From the NCBI RefSeq assembly GCF_040822085.1, contig NZ_CP162006.1:3968001-4032000 (forward strand): a stretch of DNA of 64,000 nt, written 5' to 3'. This stretch comes from Rhodoferax sp. WC2427 (GTDB lineage: Bacteria; Pseudomonadota; Gammaproteobacteria; Burkholderiales; Burkholderiaceae_C). The first letter of the stretch is position 1; every line of letters starts with the position of its first letter. Under the pieces are notes generated by a model, which did not search any database, was not told the DNA's origin, and saw only the letters and a program-made list of their open reading frames with translations. The translations under genes and the position numbers were made by a program. Shown here in pieces: positions 3,613 to 63,985 of the stretch.

Positions 3613-3657
3613 AATCGCCCCTCCCCCAGCCTCTGGATGTTTACCACGGACCGCTGT

Positions 3658-4050
3658 ATGCCAATTCTCTCTCCCCACCGAAACGCTATATTTAGAATAG
3701 CTGCTCTCGCCCTATCCATAAGCGCTGGAGCCACTTTTTCCTTAAATCTACACGCCCAGGAGCGCAACTTCCCGGCCACGGCCCTGCGCGGCACGCTGGA
3801 AGTCACGGTGCCGCCGCAGGTGCTGCTGGATGGCAAGATCGACCAGCTCTCGCCCGGTGCCCGCATCTACAACAGCAACAACATGCTGGTGCTGTCGGGC
3901 AGCTTGGTGGGCCAGCCGACGCTGGCCGTCAACTACACCCGTGAGATCGGTGGCGCGGTCCACCAGGTGTGGCTGTTGACCGAGGCCGAAGCCGAAGTCA
4001 AACGCCCCACCGCCGCCAAGCCCTGGCGCTTCTTTGGCCTTTTCGATTGA
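3658..4050 (+). CDS. Small exported protein of unknown function whose signal peptide is made of a genomic repeat
   Basis: A 130-residue protein with an N-terminal signal peptide and likely cleavage after LHA near residue 33. The mature part has no cysteines and no family I recognise. I chose the ATG at 3658; an in-frame ATG at 3637 would add seven residues before the signal peptide. The hydrophobic core ([18 protein letters not shown]) is encoded by a copy of the palindromic repeat found throughout the window, in the same frame as in the M16 peptidase gene ending at 16836. The gene lies 47 bases before miaB but has no obvious link to it. Confidence 0.65.
3693..3748 (+). repeat. Palindromic repeat copy R1, inside the signal peptide of the 3658-4050 gene
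   Basis: The left arm AATAGCTGCTCTCGC and right arm ATAAGCGCTGGAGCC match the family consensus with a few changes, followed by the usual T-run. It is read in the frame [11 protein letters not shown]. It is more diverged than intergenic copies, as expected if protein function constrains it. Confidence 0.75.
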
Positions 4051-11079: not shown

Positions 11080-11097
11080 AGTAAACGCAGCGCGCAA

Positions 11098-11160
11098 TGC
11101 TACATAAAAAATAGCTGCTCACGCTTATTTTATAAGCGTGAGCAGCTATTTTTGCTTCAA
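11098..11160. repeat. Palindromic repeat copy R2, between rfbC and the convergent PHA-system gene
   Basis: Near-perfect palindrome with inner arms TAGCTGCTCACGCTTAT and ATAAGCGTGAGCAGCTA, an A-run before and a T-run after. Position and tails fit a bidirectional terminator for two convergent genes. The minus strand is stop-free through the core and reads KIAAHAYKISVSS. Confidence 0.9.
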
Positions 11161-13531: not shown

Positions 13532-14278
13532 ATGGCCAGCATAGGCGCAATTTGCGCCCCGCAAGATCCCGACATGCCCCAACTCGTATTTATTCCCGGC
13601 CTGGCCACCGATGCCCACATGTGGCAGGACCAACTTGCCGCCGTCGCCCCCTTCTGGCAGGCCACGGTGGCCGACGTGCTGGTGCACTACACCCGCATCG
13701 AAGACATGGCCCAAGCTGTGCTGCGGGAGCACCCGGGCGACCTGGTGCTGTGCGGCGCCTCCATGGGCGGCATCATCGCCATGGAGGCCGTGCGCCAGGC
13801 CCCCGCGCGCGTCCGCGCCCTGGCCCTGCTGGGCACCAGCGCCCGGCCGGAACTTCCACACCACCGTGCGCAGCGCGAAACCGCGATCAAGATGGTGGAA
13901 GCGGGTCGCCTGGCCGAATTTGTGCGGGCCACGGCCGCCATGGCGTTCTCGCCCACCCACCCCAGCGACAAGGCCGACCTGCAGCGCTACAAAGACATGG
14001 TGCTGCGCACGCCGCCCGCCCTGTGGGTGCAGCAAAACCGCGCCCTGGCCGACCGGCCCGACGCGCGCCTGCACCTGGGCGCGGTGCGCTGCCCGACCCT
14101 GGTGCTGTGCGGTGACAAGGACCTGCTGACCCCGCCCAAACTGTCGGAAGAAATCGCCAGCCTGGTGCCCGGCGCAGAGCTGCACCTGCTGCCCCGCTGC
14201 GGCCACATGCTGACCATGGAGCAACCCGACGAAGTGAACGCCGTGCTGCTGGACTGGCTGGGTCGGCTGCAACCGTAG
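13532..14278 (+). CDS. Alpha/beta-fold hydrolase
   Basis: A hydrolase of about 248 residues with the nucleophile elbow GASMGG (Ser near residue 84), a catalytic Asp in CGDKDLLTP near 204 and a His in RCGHMLTMEQP near 232. The substrate cannot be told; the family includes esterases, lactonases and acyl-carrier hydrolases. I took the ATG at 13532, with GAGG eight bases upstream; an ATG at 13574 would remove 14 residues and start at MPQLVFIPG, which is also plausible. The stop runs into repeat copy R3. Confidence 0.85.
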   Translation: MASIGAICAPQDPDMPQLVFIPGLATDAHMWQDQLAAVAPFWQATVADVLVHYTRIEDMAQAVLREHPGDLVLCGASMGGIIAMEAVRQAPARVRALALLGTSARPELPHHRAQRETAIKMVEAGRLAEFVRATAAMAFSPTHPSDKADLQRYKDMVLRTPPALWVQQNRALADRPDARLHLGAVRCPTLVLCGDKDLLTPPKLSEEIASLVPGAELHLLPRCGHMLTMEQPDEVNAVLLDWLGRLQP

Positions 14279-14279
14279 T

Positions 14280-14344
14280 TGCTACAGTTTAAATAGCTTG
14301 TCACGCTGATGGAATAAGCGTGAGAGGCCTATTTTCCTTAAATG
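14280..14344. repeat. Palindromic repeat copy R3, between the hydrolase gene and convergent coaD
   Basis: Diverged copy: left outer TTGCTACAG, inner arms TAGCTTGTCACGC and AATAAGCGTGAGAGGCC, ending in TATTTTCCTTAAA as in R1. It fills the whole space between two convergent genes. Confidence 0.8.
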
Positions 14345-15492: not shown

Positions 15493-16836
15493 TTAGGGGG
15501 TTTCTCCGACCACCACGGTGGCCATTTTCTCGGGTTGCAGGATACGGGCAAAAGCCGTTCGGATGTCGGCTTGCGTGACGCGGGCGATCTGTGCGGTCCA
15601 GTGGTCCAGGTAGTCCAGCGGCAGATGGTTCCACGCGATGTTAGCCACGTTGTCGAGCAGTTTGCGGTTGCTGTCGATGCGCAGGGCAAATCCGCCCTGC
15701 AGATTGTCCTTGGCGGCCTGCAGTTCGGCGGCGGTGGGGCCGTCGGCCACGAAGCGGGCCAGCACATCCTTGGCCACCTGGATGGCCTGCTTGGCCTGGT
15801 CGGGCCGGGTCTGCAGGCCGATGGTGAAGGCCCCGGCGTGCAGGGCGGGCATAAAGCTGCTGTAGACGCTGTAGCTCAAGCCGCGCTTTTCGCGCACCTC
15901 GGTGGTCAGGCGCGAGCCAAAGCCGCCGCCGCCCAGGATGTGGTTGCCCACCAGCAGGGCGAAGAAGGCCGGGTCGCTGCGCGCATAGCCGACCTGGCCG
16001 ATCAGCACCTGCGCCTGGGCAGCATCAAACGGGATTCGCTGCTCGCTGCTGCGCCCCAACGGCTGCACCTCCGCCACGGCGGGCAGGGGCAGGCAGCCGG
16101 TGGCGGGCAGGCGGGCCAGCAGCCGGGTCACCAGCGCATCGGCCTGCGCCCGGTCCACCGCGCCCACCAGGCTGACGGTGGCCCGGCAGGGCAGGATGCT
16201 GCGGGTGTAGAAGGCGCGCATGTCGGCGGTCTGGATGCGGGCCAGCGTCTCGGCGGTCAGCTCGTAACCGTAAGGGTGCGTGCCGTACACGGCGGCGGCA
16301 AACGCGCGCCCGGCCACCGTGGCGGGCCGGGTGGCGGATTCCTTGAGCTGGGCCGCCACCCGCTGGCGTTCGCGCTGCCACAGGCTGTCGCTGAAGGCGG
16401 GCTCGCCGATCTGGCGGGCCGCCAGGGCGGTGGCCTTCTCCAACAGGTCAGGATAGGTCAGGGTACGCAGCGAAAAGCTGAAGCGGTCGCTGCTGGCGCT
16501 GCTGTCCAGCGACGCGCCCAGATCGGCCCAGGCTTCGCCCAGGGCGTTTTCGTCCAGCGCGGGCGCTGTGCCCACGGCCAGTACGCCTTCCGAGGCCATG
16601 CCTGCGGTCAGGCTGGCCAACCCGGCCTGCGCAGCCGGGTCGCGGCGGCTGCCCGCGTCGAAGTCGATCTGCACGTCCAGCATGGGGATGGCCGGGCTGG
16701 GCACCAGGTAGACCTGCGCGCCGCTGGGCTGGGTCCAGTGCTGGATGGGAATGCCCGCCCATGCGAAATTTAAGCCAAACAGGCCGCTAGCGCTTATGGC
16801 AAGAGCGTGAGCAGCTATTTTTTTGATAGTAAACAT
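15493..16836 (-). CDS. M16 family peptidase-like subunit without the zinc motif, exported
   Basis: A 447-residue periplasmic M16 (pitrilysin/MPP-like) protein that lacks the HxxEH zinc site; the matching region reads AGLASLTAGMASEG. It keeps the C-terminal R-Y segment (EVREKRGLSYSVYSSF) that helps bind substrate. Such subunits pair with an active partner, here the gene just upstream, whose stop overlaps this ATG (TGATG). The signal peptide (cleaved after FAWA, residue 27) is encoded almost wholly by repeat copy R4 (KIAAHALAISASGLFGLN). The pair resembles PqqL/YhjJ-type periplasmic peptidases. Confidence 0.9.
   Translation of the reverse strand: MFTIKKIAAHALAISASGLFGLNFAWAGIPIQHWTQPSGAQVYLVPSPAIPMLDVQIDFDAGSRRDPAAQAGLASLTAGMASEGVLAVGTAPALDENALGEAWADLGASLDSSASSDRFSFSLRTLTYPDLLEKATALAARQIGEPAFSDSLWQRERQRVAAQLKESATRPATVAGRAFAAAVYGTHPYGYELTAETLARIQTADMRAFYTRSILPCRATVSLVGAVDRAQADALVTRLLARLPATGCLPLPAVAEVQPLGRSSEQRIPFDAAQAQVLIGQVGYARSDPAFFALLVGNHILGGGGFGSRLTTEVREKRGLSYSVYSSFMPALHAGAFTIGLQTRPDQAKQAIQVAKDVLARFVADGPTAAELQAAKDNLQGGFALRIDSNRKLLDNVANIAWNHLPLDYLDHWTAQIARVTQADIRTAFARILQPEKMATVVVGETP
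16766..16834 (-). repeat. Palindromic repeat copy R4, inside the signal peptide of the M16 subunit
   Basis: On the minus strand it begins with the outer box TTTACTATCAAA, then ATAGCTGCTCACGCTCT and ATAAGCGCTAGCGGCC. It is read as KIAAHALAISASGL, the same frame as copies R1, R12 and R13. Little diverged, so probably a recent arrival or recently converted copy. Confidence 0.88.
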
Positions 16837-28439: not shown

Positions 28440-28505
28440 CTATATACCTTTTAGGCCGCTAGCGCTTATGAAATAAGCGTGAGCAGCTCCTAAAGGCATA
28501 GCAAA
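28440..28505. repeat. Palindromic repeat copy R5, between the Crp-type and GNAT genes
   Basis: Inner arms TAGGCCGCTAGCGCTTATG and AATAAGCGTGAGCAGCTCCTA, with the outer box CATAGCAAA on the right. It lies between convergent genes and ends against the GNAT stop codon. Confidence 0.88.
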
Positions 28506-35472: not shown

Positions 35473-36830
35473 CGCTGCGCCCGCACATCCAGAACCTGGT
35501 GGCAAACGGCTTCGACACCGACCGCAGCCGCTACTTTTTGCTCCATGTCGCGCAGCCCGCCGCGGCCCGGCTGTTCTTGCGCACCCTGCTGGCCCAGGGC
35601 TGGGTGCTCCATGCCCATGAAGCGCGCCAACAGGCCAAGGCCCTGCACGAGCAGCACCGCTGCCCCGCCGGCATCGGCTTCACCTATGCCGGCCTGCAAG
35701 CCCTGGCGCTGCCCACGCGCTTTCTGCGCCTAGTGGCGGAGCAGGCACCGGCCTTTGCCGAAGGTGCCCCGCTGCGCGCCGCGCACCGCCTGGCCGACAC
35801 CGGCCCCAGCGCCGCCGCGCTCTGGGAGGAGCCGTTCCGCCACCGGCACGCCCACGTGTTTTTGACCCTGCACGCCGACGACCCCGCCACCCTGGACCGC
35901 TGCAGCCAGACGCTGCAGACAATAGCGGGCGAGGCCTTTGCCCCGGCAGGCTGGGCCACGCCCTTGGACGGTGCCCACCTGGGCAGCAACAAAAAGCAGC
36001 GCCGCGAACACTTTGGCCACCTGGACGGCCTGACCAATCCCTTGATCGACGGCCTGCACACCCTGCGGGAGACCCAAGCCGCCCTGGCCGTGCCACCCAC
36101 ATTGCAGGCCCCTGGCGAATTCTTGCTGGGCCACCGCAACGCCGACGGCTACAACCCCTGGCTCAACGCCGCCGAGCCCGCCACGGTGCGGCAGTTTTTT
36201 ACCAACGGCAGCTTCTCGGCCCTGCGCAAAATGGCGCAAGACGTGGAGCGCTTCAACCACTTTGTGCACAGCCAGCCCCTGCCCGCAGCCACCGTGCGCG
36301 CCAAGCTGCTGGGCCGCTGGGACGACGGCCAGGTGGTCAGCCCCGTGCCCGTGGCCGGGCCCAAACCCACCACCCGCGCCGGGCTGAACAGCTTCGACTT
36401 CAAAAACGACCCGCAGGGCCTGGGCTGCCCCTATGGCGCGCACATACGCCGCATGAACCCGCGCGAGGACGCGGTGGTGCCGGTGCGCAAACGCCCGCTG
36501 ATCCGCCGCGGCATTCCGTACACCACAGACAGTGAGCGCGGCCTGCTGGGCCTGTTCTTTTGCGCCAGCCTGGAAGACCAGTTTGAACACCTGCTGGCCG
36601 AATGGGGCAACAAAAACCCCTTTGGCGTGCCCAACGCCAGCACCGCCAAGGACCCGATGGTGGGCAACCACGAGGCCGACGGTGGCGTCTTCTGCATCCC
36701 CAACGCCACCGGGCCCGACACGCAGCTCAGCGGCTTTACCCCGTTTGTCACTACCAAGGGCACGCTGTACAGCTTCTTTCCGAGCCTGGATGCCTTGCAC
36801 ATGCTGGCGGATGGCTTAGGCACGGAATAG
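35469..36830 (+). CDS. DyP-type haem peroxidase
   Basis: A 453-residue dye-decolorising peroxidase. The distal catalytic Asp is D186 in FGHLDGLTNP (GxxDG motif), the proximal haem His is H325 in CPYGAHIRRMNP, and the distal Arg is likely in RRGIPY near 352. There is no Tat or Sec signal, so it is cytoplasmic. Its ATG overlaps the P450 stop (ATGA), giving tight coupling. DyPs oxidise dyes, phenols and perhaps lipids; together with the P450 it suggests a two-haem oxidation route. Repeat R6 follows the stop. Confidence 0.93.
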   Translation: MTLRPHIQNLVANGFDTDRSRYFLLHVAQPAAARLFLRTLLAQGWVLHAHEARQQAKALHEQHRCPAGIGFTYAGLQALALPTRFLRLVAEQAPAFAEGAPLRAAHRLADTGPSAAALWEEPFRHRHAHVFLTLHADDPATLDRCSQTLQTIAGEAFAPAGWATPLDGAHLGSNKKQRREHFGHLDGLTNPLIDGLHTLRETQAALAVPPTLQAPGEFLLGHRNADGYNPWLNAAEPATVRQFFTNGSFSALRKMAQDVERFNHFVHSQPLPAATVRAKLLGRWDDGQVVSPVPVAGPKPTTRAGLNSFDFKNDPQGLGCPYGAHIRRMNPREDAVVPVRKRPLIRRGIPYTTDSERGLLGLFFCASLEDQFEHLLAEWGNKNPFGVPNASTAKDPMVGNHEADGGVFCIPNATGPDTQLSGFTPFVTTKGTLYSFFPSLDALHMLADGLGTE

Positions 36831-36891
36831 GCCTCTTGCGCTTATGGAATGGGCGTGAGCAGCTATTTTTACAATAGCAAACAGATTGGCG
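36829..36891. repeat. Palindromic repeat copy R6, after the DyP gene
   Basis: Inner arms AGGCCTCTTGCGCTTATG and GGGCGTGAGCAGCTATTTTT, with right outer box CAATAGCAAAC. It separates two genes on the same strand. The minus strand reads KIAAHAHSISARGLF without a stop. Likely terminator of the P450-DyP operon. Confidence 0.85.
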
Positions 36892-36950: not shown

Positions 36951-37757
36951 ATGACCACCACCCTCCCCACCTATTTCATCTCCCACGGCGGCGGGCCGTG
37001 GCCCTACATGGACAGCATGCGCGAGGCCATGCGTGGCCTGGCCACCGCGCTGGCCGACATGCCGCGCCAGTACCCAGCGCCCAAGGCGATTCTGGTGATC
37101 TCGGCGCACTGGGAAGAAAACGCCTTCAGCGTCATGTCCAACCCCCACCCCGGCATGCTGTACGACTACGGCGGCTTTCCGCCGCACACCTACAAGGTGG
37201 TCTACCCGGCCCCCGGCGCGCCGGAGCTGGCCGTGCGCGTCCAGGGCCTGCTGGCTGCTGCCGGGCTGCCGGTGCGGCTGGACCCGCAGCGCGGCTTCGA
37301 CCACGGCACCTTTTCACCGCTGGTGGTGATGTACCCGGATGCGGATGTGCCCCTGCTGCAGGTGTCGCTGAAAACCGGGCTCGACCCGGCGGTGCACATT
37401 GCCCTGGGCCGGGCGCTGGCCCCGCTACGCGACGAGGGCGTGCTGATTGTGGGCAGCGGCCTGAGCTACCACAACCTGCGCCAGTTCGGCCCGCCGGGCA
37501 AGGCCCCGTCCATGGCTTTTGACCAGTGGCTGCAAGACACCGTGGTGGCCGCCAGCCCGGCCGAGCGCGAAGCCCGCCTGCTGGACTGGGCCGCCGCCCC
37601 CGCCGCCCGCATCGCCCACCCGCGCGAAGAGCACCTGCTGCCGCTGATGGTGGCGATGGGCGCGGCCGAAAACGACGCTGCCACCTGCGTGTACCACGAG
37701 GACAACGTCTTCGGCGGCATCACCGTGTCCAGCTTCCGGTTCGACGCCTCCCAATAA
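36951..37757 (+). CDS. Class III extradiol ring-cleavage dioxygenase (LigB/YgiD, DODA type)
   Basis: A 268-residue non-haem iron or zinc dioxygenase with the family N-terminus FISHGGGPWPYMD, conserved SAHWEE near 53, FDHGTFSPL near 122, GSGLSYHNLR near 168 and the C-terminal VFGGITVSSFRF. Homologues cleave DOPA or other catechols. Full length for the YgiD group. It follows the peroxidase operon after R6, so it may be a separate unit; a link to aromatic oxidation is possible but unproven. Confidence 0.93.
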   Translation: MTTTLPTYFISHGGGPWPYMDSMREAMRGLATALADMPRQYPAPKAILVISAHWEENAFSVMSNPHPGMLYDYGGFPPHTYKVVYPAPGAPELAVRVQGLLAAAGLPVRLDPQRGFDHGTFSPLVVMYPDADVPLLQVSLKTGLDPAVHIALGRALAPLRDEGVLIVGSGLSYHNLRQFGPPGKAPSMAFDQWLQDTVVAASPAEREARLLDWAAAPAARIAHPREEHLLPLMVAMGAAENDAATCVYHEDNVFGGITVSSFRFDASQ

Positions 37758-37813
37758 AAAGAGCTGCTCACGCTTATGGAATAAGCGTGAGCAGCTCTTA
37801 ATTAGATAGCAAC
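37754..37813. repeat. Palindromic repeat copy R7, between the LigB and DUF2917 genes
   Basis: Almost perfect: AAAGAGCTGCTCACGCTTAT and ATAAGCGTGAGCAGCTCTTA, outer box GATAGCAAC on the right. Between convergent genes; the LigB stop codon lies within its left edge. Confidence 0.92.
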
Positions 37814-39412: not shown

Positions 39413-39470
39413 TTTGCTATCTTAAAAAGAGCTACTCACGCCCATCTAATAAGCGCTAGCAGCCATTTTC
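39413..39470. repeat. Palindromic repeat copy R8, between the LysR and cyclo-ligase genes
   Basis: Left outer box TTTGCTATCTTAAAA, inner arms GAGCTACTCACGCCCAT and AATAAGCGCTAGCAGCC. Between convergent genes. The plus strand reads ILKRATHAHLISASS without a stop. Confidence 0.88.
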
Positions 39471-39474
39471 ATGC

Positions 39475-40077
39475 CTAACCTACCGGCCAGACGACGCCGT
39501 TATCGTTCAGGATGGCGTCCAGCGGCACGTCGTGCGGCTCGGGCTCGAAGTCGTCCAGGTAGCCCTGGGTGAAGCCCAGGCCCACGGTGAAGGGCTTGGG
39601 CTCCAGCGTGGCCAGCATGCGGTCGTAGAAACCGCCACCGTAGCCCAGCCGGTAGCCGCCCGCCGCGTAACCCACGCAGGGCACGAACAGCAGGGTGGGC
39701 TGCACCATCTCGGTGGCCTTGGGCTTGAGGATGCCGTAGGCATCTTCTTCCATGGGGCAGCCGGGGTACCAGGCGTGGAAGGTCATGGTTTTGTGCAGCT
39801 TGTTGACCACCGGCAGACCGATGCGCTTGAGCTGGGGGCCATCGAGCAGTTCGCCGTCTTCCTTCCAGCGGTGCAGGGCGGGCAGCGGGTCGAACTCGCC
39901 TTTGATGGGCCAGTAGGCACCGATCACGGTATCGGGCCGCCCCACCAGCCAGATGCGCATCACGCGCTGCAGCAAATCGGCCCGCTCCAGGCGGTCGGGC
40001 AGCTCCAGACGTTGCGCAACCAGGGCCTCGCGCAGGGCTTTTTTGTCCTGGGCTTTGTCGTTGTTTGAGTTGTCCAT
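39475..40077 (-). CDS. 5-formyltetrahydrofolate cyclo-ligase
   Basis: A 200-residue enzyme that converts 5-formyl-THF to 5,10-methenyl-THF with ATP, salvaging the folate storage form. The N-terminal KKALREALVAQR motif is present, and the C-terminal signature LGYGGGFYDRMLA (near residue 148) binds phosphate and folate. An ATG at 40092 would add five residues and then overlap the opposite-strand transglycosylase gene starting at 40087; 40077 leaves a nine-base divergent gap. Usual symbols are ygfA or fau. Confidence 0.92.
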   Translation of the reverse strand: MDNSNNDKAQDKKALREALVAQRLELPDRLERADLLQRVMRIWLVGRPDTVIGAYWPIKGEFDPLPALHRWKEDGELLDGPQLKRIGLPVVNKLHKTMTFHAWYPGCPMEEDAYGILKPKATEMVQPTLLFVPCVGYAAGGYRLGYGGGFYDRMLATLEPKPFTVGLGFTQGYLDDFEPEPHDVPLDAILNDNGVVWPVG

Positions 40078-40086
40078 AATCCCCAC

Positions 40087-42084
40087 ATGCAAGTTCCCGC
40101 CATTCTGACATCCTTAACGCTGGCCCTGAGCCTCATCTTCTCAGGCGCTGCCTGCAGCCAATCCAGATCCGATCCTGCCGGGGATGCCACCATCCTGGAC
40201 ATGGCCCAGGCCTTCAAAAAGGGCGACCGCAAGCGCCTGGCGGCCCTGCTGCCCCAGGCGCGCGGCCATATTTTGGAACCCTGGGCGGCCTACTGGGAGC
40301 AGCGCCTGCGCCTGGACGAGATGACCGCGCTCGACCTGCAGGCCTTCGGCGCCCGCTTCCCCAACACCTACCAGGAAGACCGGCTGCGCAACGACTGGCT
40401 GCTGCTGCTGGGCCAGCGCCGCGACTGGGCCACCTTTGCCGACGAATACAGCCGCTACCGCATGGCCGACGACCGCGAAGTGCGCTGCTACGCCCTCGGC
40501 ATCGAACAAATCGAGCAAGGCGCCCGCAGCAGCCCGGCCCTGGCCGAGGAGGTGCGCAAGAACTGGTACGCCCTGCGCGAGGCCGACGACGGCTGCACCC
40601 AGGCCGCCAGCCAGCTGTTTGCCGCCAAAAAGCTCACGCCGCTGGACATCTGGCGCAAGGCCCGCCTGGCCGCAGAAGCCAACCGCCCGCGCATGGCCGC
40701 CAAGGCGGTGGAAATTGTCGCCCCCGAATCGTTGCCGCTGCTGGCCGAGCTCAACGACAGCCCGACCAAGTTCCTGCTCAGCAAGGTCACCGCCCTGTCC
40801 CGGGCGCGCCGCGAAGTGGTGCTGCTGGCCCTGGTCAAGATGGCCAGCACCGACCCCGACAACGCCGCCGCACTGCTCGACAACAAGTGGAGCAGCCAGC
40901 TCAACGCCGAAGAACGCAACTGGGTCTGGGGCGTGGTTGGCAAGCAGTCGGCCATGCGGCTGTCGCCCTTGGCGGTGGATTACTACGCCCACGTCACCGA
41001 AGACGCGGACCTGAACGACGAGATGCTGGCCTGGAAGGTACGCAGCGCGCTGCGCGTGGGCCGCTGGAAAGAGGTGGTCAGCGCCGCCAGCGCCATGGGC
41101 AAGGACGCGCAGGCCGACCCCACCTGGGTGTACTGGAAGGCGCGGGCCCTGCAGGCGCAGGTCAAGTCCGACCTGGACCGGGTGGAGCCCAAGCGTTTGT
41201 TTGAAAGCATTGCCGGGGTGCGCGGCTTCTACGAGCAGCTGGCACTGGAAGAACTGGGCCAGAAAATCACCGTGCCACCGCGCCCGCTGCCCGTCACCCC
41301 CGAAGAAAAAGACGCGGCCCGCGCCAACATCGGCCTGCAGCGCGGCCTGGCCGCCATCCAGCTGGGCCTGCGCAGCGAGGGCAACCGCGAGTGGAACTAC
41401 AGCACCAACCTGCACGAGCGCGGCGGCATGGGCGACCGCGAGCTGCTGGCCGCTGCCGACCTGGCCTGCCAGCGCGAGGTGTGGGACCGCTGCATCAACA
41501 CCAGCGAACGCACCCGCACGGTGATGGACTTCGAGCAGCGCTTTCCCACGCCCTACCGCGATACCGTGGTGCAGCGCAGCCGCGCCATCAACCTGGACCC
41601 GGCCTACGTGTACGGCCTGATCCGCCAGGAGTCGCGCTTCATCATGGACGCGCGCTCGGGCGTGGGCGCCTCGGGCCTGATGCAGGTCATGCCCGCCACC
41701 GCCCGCTGGACGGCCAAGAAAATCGGCCTGAACGGATTCACCCCCGACCAGCTCAGTGACCGCGACACCAACATCACCATTGGCACGGGCTACCTGAAGC
41801 TGGTGCTGGACGACTTTGCGGGCTCCATGCCCATGGCCGCCGCCGCCTACAACGCCGGGCCGGGCCGCCCGCGCGTGTGGCGCAACGGGCCGGTGCTGGA
41901 GGCGGCGATTTGGGCCGAGAATGTGCCGTTTACCGAAACCCGCGACTACGTCAAAAAAGTGCTCTCCAACACCACCAACTACGCCGCCCTGTTGACCGGC
42001 CAGCCGCAGTCGCTGAAAACCCGGCTCGGCCTGGTGGGCCCACTCGACGCGAACGCGGTGGAACTGATCAAGGACCTGCCATGA
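40087..42084 (+). CDS. slt: Soluble lytic murein transglycosylase (Slt70-like)
   Basis: A 665-residue periplasmic muramidase with a signal peptide (residues 1-24, [15 protein letters not shown]), a long superhelical U/L-domain of paired helices (30-500), and a C-terminal SLT domain. The catalytic Glu lies in [10 protein letters not shown] near residue 515; [13 protein letters not shown] and [14 protein letters not shown] follow. It cleaves peptidoglycan, leaving 1,6-anhydro-muropeptides. The stop overlaps the panB ATG. The cleavage site ends at Ala-Ala-Cys, so a lipoprotein cannot be fully ruled out. Confidence 0.94.
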
Positions 42085-43878: not shown

Positions 43879-43945
43879 CTTGCTATTTAATCAGTAGCTT
43901 CTTACGCTGATTGGATAAGCGCTAGAGGCTGTTTTCATCTATAAA
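43879..43945. repeat. Palindromic repeat copy R9, between panC and the GGDEF gene
   Basis: Left outer box TTGCTATTTAATC, arms AGTAGCTTCTTACGCTGAT and ATAAGCGCTAGAGGCTGTTTT, right outer ATCTATAAAA. Between convergent genes. Confidence 0.85.
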
Positions 43946-45149: not shown

Positions 45150-45259
45150 GACAGAAGTAGCCCATTTATTGCCATGCAACCCACCTGTTTATGTACCCAG
45201 ATGTAGCAAGCATAAGCCAAACAGGCCACCTGGGGATAGCCAGAAAACGACACAACATA

Positions 45260-45318
45260 CGCTACAAATAAAAGAGCTGCTAGCGCCTATTGAATAAGCG
45301 CTAGCAGCTCTTTTTACA
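45260..45318. repeat. Palindromic repeat copy R10, after the ABC-transporter operon
   Basis: Near-perfect: AAAGAGCTGCTAGCGCCTAT and AATAAGCGCTAGCAGCTCTTT. It lies 27 bases beyond the stop of the ATPase gene and before the GGDEF gene on the same strand; on the minus strand it is placed as the terminator of the sugar-transport operon. Confidence 0.9.
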
Positions 45319-45344
45319 CTGAACTTTGGCCCCAGGCCAGGTGC

Positions 45345-46584: not shown

Positions 46585-47430
46585 TCAGCCCTTGACGGCA
46601 CCTGCCGTCAGGCCGCCCACAATCTTGCGTTGGAATATCAACACCAGCGCGATCAATGGCAGAGTGACCAGTACCGAAGCGGCCATGATCTTGCCCCATG
46701 GGATTTCATATTTGTCGGCACCGCTGATGAGCGAAATCGACACCGGGACCGTACGGTCGGCGTTGTTCAGCACAAAGGTCAGGGCGAACATGAACTCGTT
46801 CCAGGCGGCGATAAAAGCCAGCAGGCCGGTGGTCACCAGCGCAGGCCACATCACCGGCAGAAACACCTTGGTGATGATGCCCCAGGGGGTGCAACCGTCC
46901 ATGATGGCGGCCTCTTCCAGCTCTTTGGGCAGGTCGCGCACAAAGGTGGTCAGCACCCACACGGTGAATGGCAGGGTGAACACCATGTACGGCAGGGTCA
47001 GGCCCCACCAGTGGTTGTAGAAGCCGATGGCCTGCATCAGCTCGAACATGCCCGACAGCACCGCCACCTGCGGGAACATGGACACCGCCAGCACCGTCAG
47101 CAGCAGCAGGCCCCGGCCCCGGAACTGGATGCGGCCCAGCGCGTAGGAGGCGGTAACCCCCAGAAACAGCGAGGCAATCACCACCAGGGTGGAGACCATC
47201 AGCGAGTTCAGGATGTGGCGGCCAAACGGGTGCTCGGCCACGGTGAACATGGCGATGTAGTTCTTGATCGACGGTGAGGCCGGCCACAGCGAGGAGCTGA
47301 ACAGTTCGGTGCCCGACTTGAGCGAAGTGACGATCGCAAAGTAGAACGGAAACAGGCAAAACAGCGCGATGACGGCCACCAGCAGGTACAGGCCAATGGC
47401 ACCGAGTATTTTTTGTTGTTGGTAATTCAT
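46585..47430 (-). CDS. ABC sugar-transporter permease, MalG type
   Basis: A 281-residue inner-membrane permease with six hydrophobic helices and the EAA loop EEAAIMDGCTPWGIITKVFLP around residue 190, which docks on the ATPase. The C-terminal end AGAVKG is typical of MalG-like subunits. It follows the MalF-like gene by ten bases and precedes the ATPase gene by 49 bases. Confidence 0.95.
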   Translation of the reverse strand: MNYQQQKILGAIGLYLLVAVIALFCLFPFYFAIVTSLKSGTELFSSSLWPASPSIKNYIAMFTVAEHPFGRHILNSLMVSTLVVIASLFLGVTASYALGRIQFRGRGLLLLTVLAVSMFPQVAVLSGMFELMQAIGFYNHWWGLTLPYMVFTLPFTVWVLTTFVRDLPKELEEAAIMDGCTPWGIITKVFLPVMWPALVTTGLLAFIAAWNEFMFALTFVLNNADRTVPVSISLISGADKYEIPWGKIMAASVLVTLPLIALVLIFQRKIVGGLTAGAVKG

Positions 47431-51495: not shown

Positions 51496-52515
51496 ATGTC
51501 ACTGAAACGGATCGCCGAAGAACTCGGCCTGTCGCTCACCACCGTGAGCCGCGCCATGAACGGCTATCCCGAAGTGGCGGCAGCAACACGCCGGGACGTT
51601 CTGGAAGCGGCGGCGCGCATGGACTACCGGGCCGATTCCCGCGCCCGGGGCTTGGCGCTGGGGCGGGCCGATGCCGTAGGTATCGTGTTTCCTATCACCA
51701 CGGGCGATCTGGGTGACCAGCAGTTTTTGCAGGTGGCTTCGTCGATGAGTGAGCGCTTTGCGCTGGCCGGGCTGGACTTGCTGATCGTGTCGGCCTCGGC
51801 CGACGACGAATTGACGGCGTACGAACGGGCCATCACCAGCCGCCATATTGGGGTGTTCGTGGTGCCCCGCACCCGCGTGCACGACCGGCGGCTGGAGCTG
51901 CTGCAGGCCCGCAACGTGGCATTTGTGGCCTACGGACGCAGCGCGTCGCTCACCTCCGAATACGCCTGGTTTGACTTCGACAACCTGGCCGGTGCCCGCA
52001 TGGCCACCGACCGCCTGCTGCGCCTGGGCCACCGCCGCCTGGCCTATCTGGGCGCATCGCCTGAATACAACTTTGCCGACCAGCGCTACGCCGGGTTTTG
52101 CGCCAGCCTGAAAGCGGCGGGCGTGCCGCTCAAACCCCAGGCGGTGCAGCGCAATGCGCTGGAGCGCCGCTCCGGCTATGCGGCCATGCAGAAGCTGCTG
52201 GCCCTGCCGCAGCGGCCCACTGCGGTGCTGGTGGACAACAATTTGGCCGGTATTGGCGCGGTCCATGCTGTGCTGCACTCCGGCCTGGTGCTGGGACGGG
52301 ATCTGTCGGTCATCGTGTACGACGGACTGGGCTCGGATTCGGTGGTGCGGACCTCGGTCACCGCGGTGCTGCAGCCGACGCCCGCCACCACGGGTGTGGC
52401 GCTGGCCGAAATGACGTTGGCACGCCTGCGCGGCGAGCCGCTGCAGACGCTGCAGAAACTGTGCATGCCAGAGCTGGAAATCGGCGACAGCGACGGCCCG
52501 CCGTTGGCCAGTTAA
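51496..52515 (+). CDS. LacI/GalR-family transcriptional repressor
   Basis: A 339-residue regulator. The HTH is at the very N-terminus (LKRIAEELGLSLTTVSRAMN, residues 3-22), followed by a hinge and a periplasmic-binding-protein-like effector domain (GIVFPITTGDLGDQQFL near 62, VLVDNNLAGIGAVHAVL near 235). It is divergent from the porin and close to the sugar ABC operon, whose promoter holds a matching palindrome, so it is probably their repressor with the transported sugar as inducer. Its stop overlaps the stop of cca. Confidence 0.94.
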   Translation: MSLKRIAEELGLSLTTVSRAMNGYPEVAAATRRDVLEAAARMDYRADSRARGLALGRADAVGIVFPITTGDLGDQQFLQVASSMSERFALAGLDLLIVSASADDELTAYERAITSRHIGVFVVPRTRVHDRRLELLQARNVAFVAYGRSASLTSEYAWFDFDNLAGARMATDRLLRLGHRRLAYLGASPEYNFADQRYAGFCASLKAAGVPLKPQAVQRNALERRSGYAAMQKLLALPQRPTAVLVDNNLAGIGAVHAVLHSGLVLGRDLSVIVYDGLGSDSVVRTSVTAVLQPTPATTGVALAEMTLARLRGEPLQTLQKLCMPELEIGDSDGPPLAS

Positions 52516-53777
52516 TCGGCCAACCCGGCCGCGTGGATGGCCGCCACCCGCGCGGCGTGGACCAGTCCCCCAATGTCTTTGCCTTGCACGCCCTTTTCCT
52601 GGGCCATCTTGGCGATCGGCTCGGTGGCCACCGACTGTGCCGCCTGTAGCACGGCCAGCCAGTGGGGACGTTGCGGGTAGGGTTGCCCGTCCAGGCCCAG
52701 TCTTCCGCGCGCATCGCACTCGCAGGCCAGCAAGGCATCGGCGAAGCGCTGGGGTTTGCGAAAGGCATCGGCCCGCTCCAGCAGACGCAAGGCGGCGGCG
52801 CTGCTGATGTCCAAGCCGCGGTGGATATTGCCGTGCTCGCGGGCCACCACGTCGGCCAGGTCACGGCAGTCCGTGGGCACGCGCAGGCGCTGGCACAGGC
52901 CTTTCAATAGATCCGCACTGCGCATTTCGTGGCCAATATGGCGGGGCAAGATGTCGGCGGGCGTGGTGGCTTTGCCCAGATCGTGCGTCAGGCACGCAAA
53001 GCGCACCGGCAGCGGCGCCTGCAGCCGCGCCGCCATGTCGAGCACCATCATCACGTGGATACCGGTGTCGATCTCGGGGTGGTAGTCGGCGCGCTGGGGC
53101 ACGCCCCACAGGGCCGCCACCTCGGGCAGCAGCCGGGCCAGGGCACCGCAGTCGCGCAGCACCGCAAACATGCGCGAGGGCTGCGGCTCCATCAGACCGC
53201 GGGCCAGTTCCTGCCACACCCGCTCGGGCACCAGGGCATCGACCTCGCCTGCGGCCACCATCTCGCGCATCAGTTCCAGGGTCTCGGGGGCCACGGTGAA
53301 GTCGGTGAAGCGGGCGGCAAAGCGGGCCACACGCAGGATGCGCACCGGGTCTTCGCGGAACGCATCGGTGACGTGGCGCAGCAGCTTGGCCTGCAGGTCG
53401 CGCTGGCCGCCAAAGGGGTCGGTCAAGGCTTCAAAATCTACGTCAAATTGGCCGTCAGCGCTTATAGGACCAGCACGAGCAGCTATTGCATTGATAGTGA
53501 GATCGCGCCGGGCCAGGTCTTGCTCCAGCGTCACATCGATGGCCGCGTGGACCGCAAAGCCACGGTAGCCGGGGGCTGTCTTGCGCTCGGTGCGGGCCAG
53601 GGCGTATTCCTCGTGGGTGCGCGGGTGCAGGAAGACGGGGAAGTCCTTGCCCACCGGCAGGAAGCCCTGGGCCACCAGCGCCTCGGGCGTCGCCCCCACT
53701 ACCACCCAATCCCGGTCGCCGCCGGTGCGGCCCAACAGGGTATCGCGGACTGCGCCGCCGACTAGATAGATTTGCAT
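52512..53777 (-). CDS. cca: CCA-adding enzyme (multifunctional CCA tRNA nucleotidyltransferase/phosphohydrolase)
   Basis: A 421-residue enzyme that adds or repairs the 3' CCA of tRNAs. It has YLVGGAVRDTLLGRTGGDRDWV at the start (strand-loop-DxD in GDRDWV), RRDLTIN near residue 92, RILRVARFAARF near 152 and an HD phosphohydrolase domain (HDLGKATTP near 265). Between LTINAI and DPFGG there are 21 residues against 9 in E. coli Cca; the extra part is encoded by repeat copy R12 (AARAGPISADGQFDVDF region). The insertion lies in a loop before the DLQ helix and may be tolerated. Confidence 0.95.
   Translation of the reverse strand: MQIYLVGGAVRDTLLGRTGGDRDWVVVGATPEALVAQGFLPVGKDFPVFLHPRTHEEYALARTERKTAPGYRGFAVHAAIDVTLEQDLARRDLTINAIAARAGPISADGQFDVDFEALTDPFGGQRDLQAKLLRHVTDAFREDPVRILRVARFAARFTDFTVAPETLELMREMVAAGEVDALVPERVWQELARGLMEPQPSRMFAVLRDCGALARLLPEVAALWGVPQRADYHPEIDTGIHVMMVLDMAARLQAPLPVRFACLTHDLGKATTPADILPRHIGHEMRSADLLKGLCQRLRVPTDCRDLADVVAREHGNIHRGLDISSAAALRLLERADAFRKPQRFADALLACECDARGRLGLDGQPYPQRPHWLAVLQAAQSVATEPIAKMAQEKGVQGKDIGGLVHAARVAAIHAAGLAD
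53444..53500 (-). repeat. Palindromic repeat copy R12, inserted in-frame in cca
   Basis: On the minus strand: outer box TCACTATCAATG, AATAGCTGCTCGTGC, ATAAGCGCTGACGGCCAATTT. It is read as AIAARAGPISADGQF, the same frame as R1, R4 and R13. Confidence 0.85.
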
Positions 53778-63280: not shown

Positions 63281-63922
63281 ATGGACGCCACCCGCATCAT
63301 CGCCATCCGCCACGGCGAAACCGCCTGGAACGTCGACACCCGCCTCCAGGGCCAACTGGACATTCCCCTCAACGACACCGGCCGCTGGCAGGCCCACCAA
63401 CTGGCGCTGGCGCTGGCCGGAGAACCCATCACCGCCGTCTACGCCAGCGACCTGTGGCGGGCCTATGAAACCGCGCTGTCGGTGGCCGGGGCGGTCGACC
63501 TGAACATCACCACCGACGAGGGCCTGCGCGAACGCGGCTTTGGCAGCTTCCAGGGCCGCACCTTTACCGAAATTGAAGCCGAACTGCCCGAGCAGGCCTT
63601 GCGCTGGCGCAAGCGCGACCCGACCTTTGCCCCCGAAGGCGGCGAGTGCCTGAACGACTTCCGCGACCGCGTGCTGGCCTGTGTCGACACCCTGGCCGCC
63701 CGCCACCCCGGCGAGCTGATCACCGTGGTGGCCCATGGCGGCGTGATGGACGTGCTGTACCGCGCCGCCACCGGCCAGGGCCTGCAAGCCCCGCGCACCT
63801 GGGACCTGGGCAACGCCGCCATCAACCGCCTGCTGTGGACCCCCGAGGGCTTCACGCTGGTGGGTTGGGCCGACACCAACCACCTGGAGCAGCAGGGCGC
63901 GTTGGACGAAAATTCGGCGTAG
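63281..63922 (+). CDS. Histidine phosphatase family protein
   Basis: A 213-residue phosphatase of the phosphoglycerate-mutase-like family. The phospho-acceptor RHGETAWN is at residues 8-15, the second His in VVAHGGVMDVL near 155, and LRERGFGSFQGRTFTEIE near 82 is typical of GpmB/CobC relatives. The ATG at 63281 is used; a GTG at 63266 overlapping the lipoprotein stop (GTGA) is an alternative. The substrate could be a phosphorylated sugar, nucleotide or cobalamin intermediate. Confidence 0.93.
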   Translation: MDATRIIAIRHGETAWNVDTRLQGQLDIPLNDTGRWQAHQLALALAGEPITAVYASDLWRAYETALSVAGAVDLNITTDEGLRERGFGSFQGRTFTEIEAELPEQALRWRKRDPTFAPEGGECLNDFRDRVLACVDTLAARHPGELITVVAHGGVMDVLYRAATGQGLQAPRTWDLGNAAINRLLWTPEGFTLVGWADTNHLEQQGALDENSA

Positions 63923-63985
63923 TGCTATTTATTTAGGAGCTTCTCACGCCCATTCCATCAGCGTAAGAGCCCGATTTAATCTACA
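63921..63985. repeat. Palindromic repeat copy R14, after the phosphatase gene
   Basis: Left outer box GTGCTATTTATTT, arms AGGAGCTTCTCACGCCCAT and ATCAGCGTAAGAGCCCGATTT. It begins at the stop codon. Whether the next gene is convergent is outside the window. Confidence 0.85.

Follow-up and report, generated by a model that had tools for sequence, protein, structure and literature searches.

A dispersed palindromic repeat of ~65 nt has very probably been captured, in a single reading frame (frame 0), as the export signal of unrelated proteins in a genome of the Rhodoferax lineage (4.78 Mb, one contig), and would then have been tuned by selection, as far as sequence comparison can tell. At least eight unrelated proteins of exported type in this genome have a signal-peptide core encoded by the repeat, all in the same frame: an M16 metallopeptidase subunit, a small protein, a chalcone-isomerase-like protein (Chalcone_3), SCO1-SenC, an HlyD/RND adaptor, GspD, a TPS exoprotein with an extended signal region (ESPR), and PCuAC. 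Pfam assigns seven of them to seven different families and the small protein to none. The initial annotation had named two recipients, the M16 subunit and the small protein; both are, but their number was set too low.

The repeat is oriented and of fixed length, with a left end of TTTGCTAT, a palindrome in the center, and a right end near TTTAAA; its mean G+C content is 41%. Thirteen copies lie in the window, i.e., the whole 64-kb stretch of DNA that was analyzed. These copies and the genes of interest are as follows:

3637 to 4050, + strand: small putative exported protein, no Pfam family; likely start at 3637, otherwise at 3658
3682 to 3746, + strand: repeat copy, signal-peptide core of the small protein
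11096 to 11160, + strand: noncoding repeat copy, palindrome near-perfect
14278 to 14342, + strand: repeat copy where a gene ends; no copy at the corresponding site of G003 (Rhodoferax sp. OV413)
15493 to 16836, − strand: M16 family metallopeptidase subunit gene (Pfam PF05193 and PF00675)
16756 to 16836, − strand: putative M16 signal peptide, MFTIKKIAAHALAISASGLFGLNFAWA (translation; cleavage placed after AWA by eye)
16769 to 16833, − strand: repeat copy, encodes M16 signal-peptide residues 2 to 22/23; 84 bits with the independent profile described below
28441 to 28505, − strand: noncoding repeat copy
36817 to 36881, − strand: noncoding repeat copy
37749 to 37813, − strand: noncoding repeat copy, terminator-like stem and T-rich tail
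39413 to 39477, + strand: noncoding repeat copy
43879 to 43943, + strand: noncoding repeat copy
45258 to 45322, + strand: noncoding repeat copy, terminator-like stem
52512 to 53777, − strand: presumed CCA-adding enzyme gene (Pfam domains PolyA_pol, PolyA_pol_RNAbd, and HD)
53437 to 53501, − strand: repeat copy inside the CCA tRNA nucleotidyltransferase gene, in the same frame; loop of 20 residues
57644 to 57708, + strand: diverged repeat copy inside a short-chain dehydrogenase gene, in the same frame
63921 to 63985, + strand: repeat copy close to the window end

A covariance model built from the 13 window copies matched every one of the 150 candidates scored, out of 3027 from a first look, and 170 distinct copies were identified, a number that is a minimum for the genome. 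With an in-sample profile, the window copies scored 55 to 90 bits, and 20 mononucleotide shuffles of the window all stayed at or below 0. An independent DNA profile of 65 columns came from 99 copies whose frame 0 contains a stop; its best score in 200,000 shuffled bases was −34. The 170 copies lie between convergent (44), tandem (72), or divergent (28) genes, overlap a gene call (22), or have an unknown context (4). These mixed contexts rule out a pure terminator at convergent genes, although several window copies resemble bidirectional terminators and an A-rich left and a T-rich right flank are both present in 54 of 157 copies. The 150 scored copies are evenly distributed along the chromosome (p 0.21), which, together with a strand bias of only p 0.035, rules out a replicore-orientation element. 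No window sequence matched an Rfam family above the gathering score, so the repeat is not a known Rfam family. A stop inside the repeat closes a coding-like frame of 100 codons 74 times over the 170 copies; these frames are unproven as genes, but the copies thus seem often to supply stop codons. One copy (L364, positions 40155 to 41911 of the genome) lies next to a CRISPR-like array whose short direct repeats translate as VHCRIGSSE units.

The M16 protein starts with MFTIKKIAAHALAISASGLFGLNFAWAGIP, and residues 2 to 23 lie in or at the edge of the repeat copy at 16769 to 16833 (−), confirming that its putative signal peptide is encoded by the repeat. The homology is evident at the DNA level: The M16 N-terminus scores 84 bits with the independent profile of stop-containing copies against a null maximum of −34. 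The copy at 3682 to 3746 (+) encodes ...NAIFRIAALALSISAGATFSLNLHAQ of the small protein and has the same orientation and frame relative to its gene as the M16 copy, as had been claimed. The repeat-encoded signal core of the small protein thus stands, but its start, given earlier as 3658, is probably 3637 (MFTTDRC...), since M-x-T-x-N-R-C or MNRC is retained in many homologues. Among the 70 homologues inspected of 120 listed, some of them with truncated sequences, NRC and AQxREFPxxALRG flanks are conserved around the swapped segment; the segment between them is repeat-coded in Rhodoferax-like homologues and different in those of Pseudorhodoferax, Hydrogenophaga, and Curvibacter.

Among 80 named M16 loci, 45 have a repeat-coded signal, a list that leans toward such signals since repeat-coded MFTIKKIA was one of its six search patterns; the other 35 score negative, 17 of them at −41 to −1. 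Since the repeat-like M16 peptide is so widespread in the family and grades into decayed forms, M16 alone leaves the direction of transfer unproven. The M16 capture is thus old, and the direction rests on the other genes. In the M16 gene of G016 (L200), the repeat precedes a seemingly intact native signal peptide, a possible capture intermediate.

The chalcone-isomerase-like protein and the lipoprotein SCO1 were found by scanning repeat copies for coding frames, the RND adaptor and GspD with a peptide profile of such cases, and the TPS exoprotein and the PCuAC copper chaperone with a second peptide profile. Because peptide profiles favor hydrophobic copies, four of the eight recipients were found with a bias, while the four found at the DNA level stand without it. 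The TPS exoprotein is an open frame of 3996 residues in which the repeat comes after the ESPR; in PCuAC, the ATG lies inside a weak copy (16 bits). In the relative G003, a DUF1223 protein likewise has a repeat-coded signal. By eye, an A-x-A–like site lies in host sequence 3 to 6 residues past the repeat in seven of the eight recipients, and the repeat alignment of SCO1 ends at the lipobox Cys; the putative cleavage sites of the eight sequences are AWA/G, LHA/Q, AWA/A, FVA/C, SQA/A, VLA/Q, VSA/Q, and SYA/Q. The n-regions of the RND adaptor and GspD, also judged by eye, have few basic residues. At one copy (L060/L146, genome positions 46755 to 46820), the repeat appears to encode the last residues and the stop of an upstream frame (...QYTLLKK*), presumably that of a cyclopropane-fatty-acid synthase, and, in another frame, the putative signal peptide for the gene that follows.

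Translated in frame 0, the repeat gives AI..IAA.A..ISA.GLF, a peptide rich in alanine and weakly hydrophobic. Its properties were assessed in 157 background copies called noncoding beforehand, among which the PBP1C-like (L087) and Ada/AlkA (L142) copies were later found inside genes. Stops occur in frame 0 of 85 of the 157 copies, leaving 72 open, and in 112 to 157 copies in the other five frames. Frames +2 and −2 are also stop-free in 45 and 35 copies, respectively, so openness alone does not force frame 0. The median apolar score is highest, narrowly, in frame 0 (1.04 versus 0.92 or less), and a stop-free, uncharged, apolar stretch of 12 residues is found there in 18 of 157 copies, compared to 0 to 3 in the other frames. 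Frame 0 is the likeliest to be open and the most signal-like.

The captured copies differ from the background in the residues they encode. At residue 11, which lies at the palindrome loop, 139 of 157 background copies encode Asp, Tyr, or His. Leu is found there in seven of the eight captured signals and in 7 of 157 background copies (p 4.5e-8); since the later cases came from a peptide profile, the test was repeated with the four DNA-found signals alone (4 of 4 versus 7 of 157; p 1.2e-5). Some relatives have Gly at residue 11 in signals too, so Leu 11 is a feature of the type found in our genome. The median hydropathy of residues 6 to 19 is 1.97 in signals (n = 8) versus 0.69 in the background (n = 135), and charged or His residues at positions 9 to 19 occur in one of eight signals versus 123 of the 135 background copies open there. 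In copies within cytosolic proteins, residue 11 stays polar or small (Gly, Tyr, Ser, or Asp in the CCA enzyme; Asp in the dehydrogenase and Ada/AlkA). The differences of the captured copies are as expected under selection for export, to judge by the encoded residues.

To follow the signals across relatives, orthologues of M16, MFP, SCO1, and GspD were searched for in 60 relatives each, giving matches in 41, 34, 55, and 42 genomes, respectively; the best 30 loci per gene yielded 120 N-termini from 44 genomes. The repeat (score above 0 with the independent profile) was present in 48 of the 120 and was in frame 0 and open in all 48. The reverse strand of the 120 segments scored above 0 in only two, both at strong copies. 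In six genomes of the genus (G000, which is our genome, G002, G003, and G005 to G007), all four genes scored 13 to 84 bits; G002 matches Rhodoferax sp. MAG 338R_concoct_194, and G003 matches Rhodoferax sp. OV413.

The distribution among clades follows that of the repeat family. In the 26 genomes with both a repeat search and a scored N-terminus (G040, without one, was dropped), the repeat family and repeat-coded signals were both present in 12 and both absent in 12; 2 had the repeat only (G010, six hits; G034, one hit), and none had the signal only (Fisher p 9.5e-6). The compared genomes are related, so neither the 48 N-termini nor the counts in this comparison are independent events, and the three repeat searches used different E-value limits (1e-3, 1e-7, and 1e-5) with a model tuned to the type of our own genome. 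MFP is the cleanest case: It scores above 0 in seven of eight members of the genus and, outside it, in G026 alone (score 8), and its scores in the repeat-bearing G011, G016, G017, and G022 are −67 to −92. In SCO1, the sequence is conserved on both sides of the swapped segment (KR ... C). Orthologues from other families of the order (G036, G037, G039, G042, G044, G046, G047, and G059) score −47 to −88.

According to the initial annotation, different, nonrepeat signals in orthologues that lack the repeat would support donation; different signals are found in orthologues from genomes without a detected repeat, with conserved flanks in the small protein and SCO1. It had also held that the same peptide in lineages without the repeat would mean that the protein sequence came first. 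At the DNA level, none of the 12 genomes without a detected repeat had an N-terminus above 0; however, one of them, G027, has decayed repeat-like peptides in three of the four genes (scores −11 to −30). Because of these look-alikes and the 17 of 35 negative M16 loci at −41 to −1, there is no clear-cut border. G001, of the same genus and 73% complete, scores below 0 in all four genes and has similar-looking peptides in GC-rich codons. The proposed donation to nonhomologous exported proteins is supported by the eight recipients that share one repeat and one frame in one genome, by the different signals where no repeat was detected, and by the many copies outside genes.

Copies are also captured in frame inside the CCA, short-chain dehydrogenase (SDR), PBP1C-like, Ada/AlkA, UbiA, and OEP genes, mostly in frame 0 (the CCA enzyme, dehydrogenase, PBP1C-like, and Ada/AlkA). 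The other strand is read in an apolar stretch inside the UbiA prenyltransferase (L006:1541-2491) and in a stretch between two domains of the outer membrane efflux protein (L069:1773-3065). For the CCA enzyme, we compared the segment between RRDLTINAIA and a DPFGG-like motif, which was matched in 29 of 30 loci. In the 13 loci with a repeat score above 0, the segment has 18 to 20 residues in 10 and 12 residues in 3 (G010, G011, and G017); in the 16 scoring below 0, it has 8 to 9 residues in 12, and 20 in G001, 15 in G015, 24 in G008, and 4 in G023, where the match is doubtful. Thus, the repeat enters proteins in general, with signal peptides as a permissive niche. Many open frame-0 stretches beside copies have a coding-like codon score yet read as the antisense of GC-rich genes; frames such as L154 and L172 were dropped by eye on this account, and most longer frames in relatives were likewise left out of the count. 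Among nine long frames over copies, Pfam gave no family for five and indicated real genes for four.

A protein-coding palindrome of this kind would work in the manner of Rickettsia palindromic elements (RPE) or REP repeats. A copy would land at, or replace, the 5′ end of a gene whose product is exported and supply the n- and h-regions, and the host gene would keep its own cleavage site (A-x-A–like, 3 to 6 residues past the repeat, or the lipobox) and often its own start. Selection would then make polar residues (His/Tyr 9, Asp/Tyr/His 11, and Arg 16) apolar or small. The sequences show homology of the DNA, a common frame, a restriction to certain clades, other signals where the repeat was not detected, and a shift in the encoded residues. 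From these we infer that the repeat-coded peptides direct export, that the swap arose by insertion or conversion instead of gradual change, and what kind of machinery moved the repeat.

Window copies mostly keep their sites in relatives. A phylogenetic tree places G000 and G007 as sisters with G002 next (support 0.99 and 1.0), and protein identity between G000 and G002 is 94% over five proteins. A copy is held at 12 of 13 sites in G007, at 10 sites with both flanks in G002, and, in G003, which is more distant, at 6 of the 8 sites where both flanks matched. The palindrome changes fast, both arms together: At all 12 orthologous sites available for this compensatory test, coding ones included, pairing within a species' own stem is higher than pairing across species. 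At 14 matching sites, column 40 of the repeat, whose partner is column 30, is always A in G000 (14 of 14) and nearly always T in G002 (13 of 14), where T is found at 6 of 7 intergenic sites, both internal coding sites, and all 5 signal peptides. G007 has A at 12 sites and G at 2, and G003 is mixed. Orthology is less firm for the copies at 14278, 28441, 39413 (extra DNA beside the copy in G002), and 45258 (one flank matched); without these four, the switch is seen at 10 of 10 sites. This site-by-site comparison supersedes a D-score test that is weak alone, its 13 G003 copies having been chosen with the model of our own genome.

Independent mutation can hardly be the source of the pattern at column 40. 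The flip of a base pair at 13 of 14 sites, coding and noncoding, points to some genome-wide process. We lean slightly toward the view that signal peptides of unrelated proteins here evolve in concert, with such a process rewriting many export signals at once. Gene conversion, re-insertion into old copies, and co-evolution with a binding protein are the candidates. The dehydrogenase copy, in which few bases differ and the pair still changed, speaks for site recognition; larger blocks of change at other sites speak for gene conversion.

The same data bear on the possibility, which we hold to be real but unlikely, that the palindrome is a recognized DNA or RNA site, either protein-bound or a terminator-like hairpin, that is kept by selection and merely tolerated by the signals. 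The base-pair switch between species would then follow a change in the recognizing protein, consistent with the joint change of both arms at 12 of 12 sites and with the A/T difference between species at column 40; the bidirectional-terminator look of some window copies and the A-rich and T-rich sides in 54 of 157 copies also fit. However, copies are not confined to convergent genes (44 of 170) and are evenly spread along the chromosome, and the stems of signal-peptide copies in four genes pair less well than those of 85 copies of our genome with a stop (median 0.73 versus 0.91). The lower pairing and the apolar residues gained at the loop suggest that the peptide is selected in signal copies.

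Another order of events, with an ancestral signal-peptide gene giving rise to the repeat, which then spread, is improbable. It would agree with the widespread and old repeat-like M16 peptide and with the peptide-like frame 0, but the other seven proteins would still have received their signals from the repeat, Leu 11 occurs in just 7 of 157 other copies, frame-0 stops occur in 85 of them, and in other families of the order, the orthologues that were examined have scores far below 0 (−47 to −88). As for chance, signal peptides generally resemble each other in composition, and AT-rich 5′ ends and hydrophobic signal peptides might converge on the repeat; scores of 13 to 84 bits in four genes of six genomes with a profile of stop-containing copies, against the shuffled maximum of −34, and the near absence of reverse-strand matches (2 of 120) make this so unlikely that we consider it ruled out. 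Capture of the repeat in frame 0 would make dispersed repeats a traceable source of new signal peptides, the origin of which is an open question: Donor copies, captured copies, and uncaptured orthologues are all present in related genomes. It suggests that one frame of the palindrome preadapts the repeat as an export signal, that selection finishes the work, and that repetitive DNA may serve as a reusable protein address label. The concerted switch, if true, would tie protein evolution to the evolution of a repeat family.

The closest known systems include RPE and, grouped with them, the Wolbachia palindromic elements. Like RPE, the Rhodoferax repeat is a short palindrome that occurs in intergenic DNA as well as in frame within unrelated genes, where it does the protein little harm; the in-frame copies here are in eight signal peptides and six other genes. 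RPE are described as 105 to 146 bp long (PMC2229807) and as ending in CGTC (PMC3733652); the Rhodoferax repeat, of ~65 nt, with no CGTC in its consensus, in Betaproteobacteria and recurrent in signal peptides, is not one of them. In the account by Delihas (2007, PMC2759123), the YPAL/RU-2 and ERIC/RU-1 repeats of Yersinia occur in open reading frames, the signal peptide predicted for YPO1552 consists in part of RU-2, a signal is predicted for YPO2495 as well, and related sequences in other genera carry unrelated signals. As described there, the RU-2 case is a direct precedent for a repeat-derived signal peptide. The Yersinia repeat is 168 bp long and concerns one or two signal-peptide loci of putative exported proteins (PMC2759123), whereas the Rhodoferax repeat is found in eight unrelated proteins, including parts of secretion and respiration systems, four of which were followed across species and genera. 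In-frame palindromes and one Yersinia signal peptide are thus already known from these sources, and the Rhodoferax case is more extensive. In the open-licence literature, we found no account of the Rhodoferax repeat, of its kind of recurrent signal-peptide capture in a large number of unrelated exported proteins, or of signal peptides changing in concert.

BRE, a dispersed betaproteobacterial repeat described as present in Rhodoferax and Polaromonas with some copies within coding sequences, is ~90 bp long with 69% G+C in Bordetella and often tandem (PMC3110155); by this description, length and G+C (~65 nt, mean 0.41) rule out identity. With respect to the terminal inverted repeats and target-site duplications of MITEs, the repeat has a palindrome, and no duplication was seen at the single empty site examined (14278 in G003). 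REP/REPIN are described as small multicopy palindromes near or overlapping coding regions that supply stop codons and are sometimes inside genes (PMC3733652). Columns 16 to 19 of the Rhodoferax repeat recall them, being ATAG or GTAG in 126 of 157 copies, but the tag is not a fixed GTAG (GTAG in 57, ATAG in 69 of 157), the conserved unit of ~65 nt is longer than a GTAG-ended palindrome of 20 to 40 bp, and its ends are asymmetric. One Y1_Tnp match (RAYT-like, PF01797) is present in our genome at about 719515 (L413); a repeat copy lies ~325 nt beyond the end of the domain match, and none was seen on the other side of the 3.3-kb locus.
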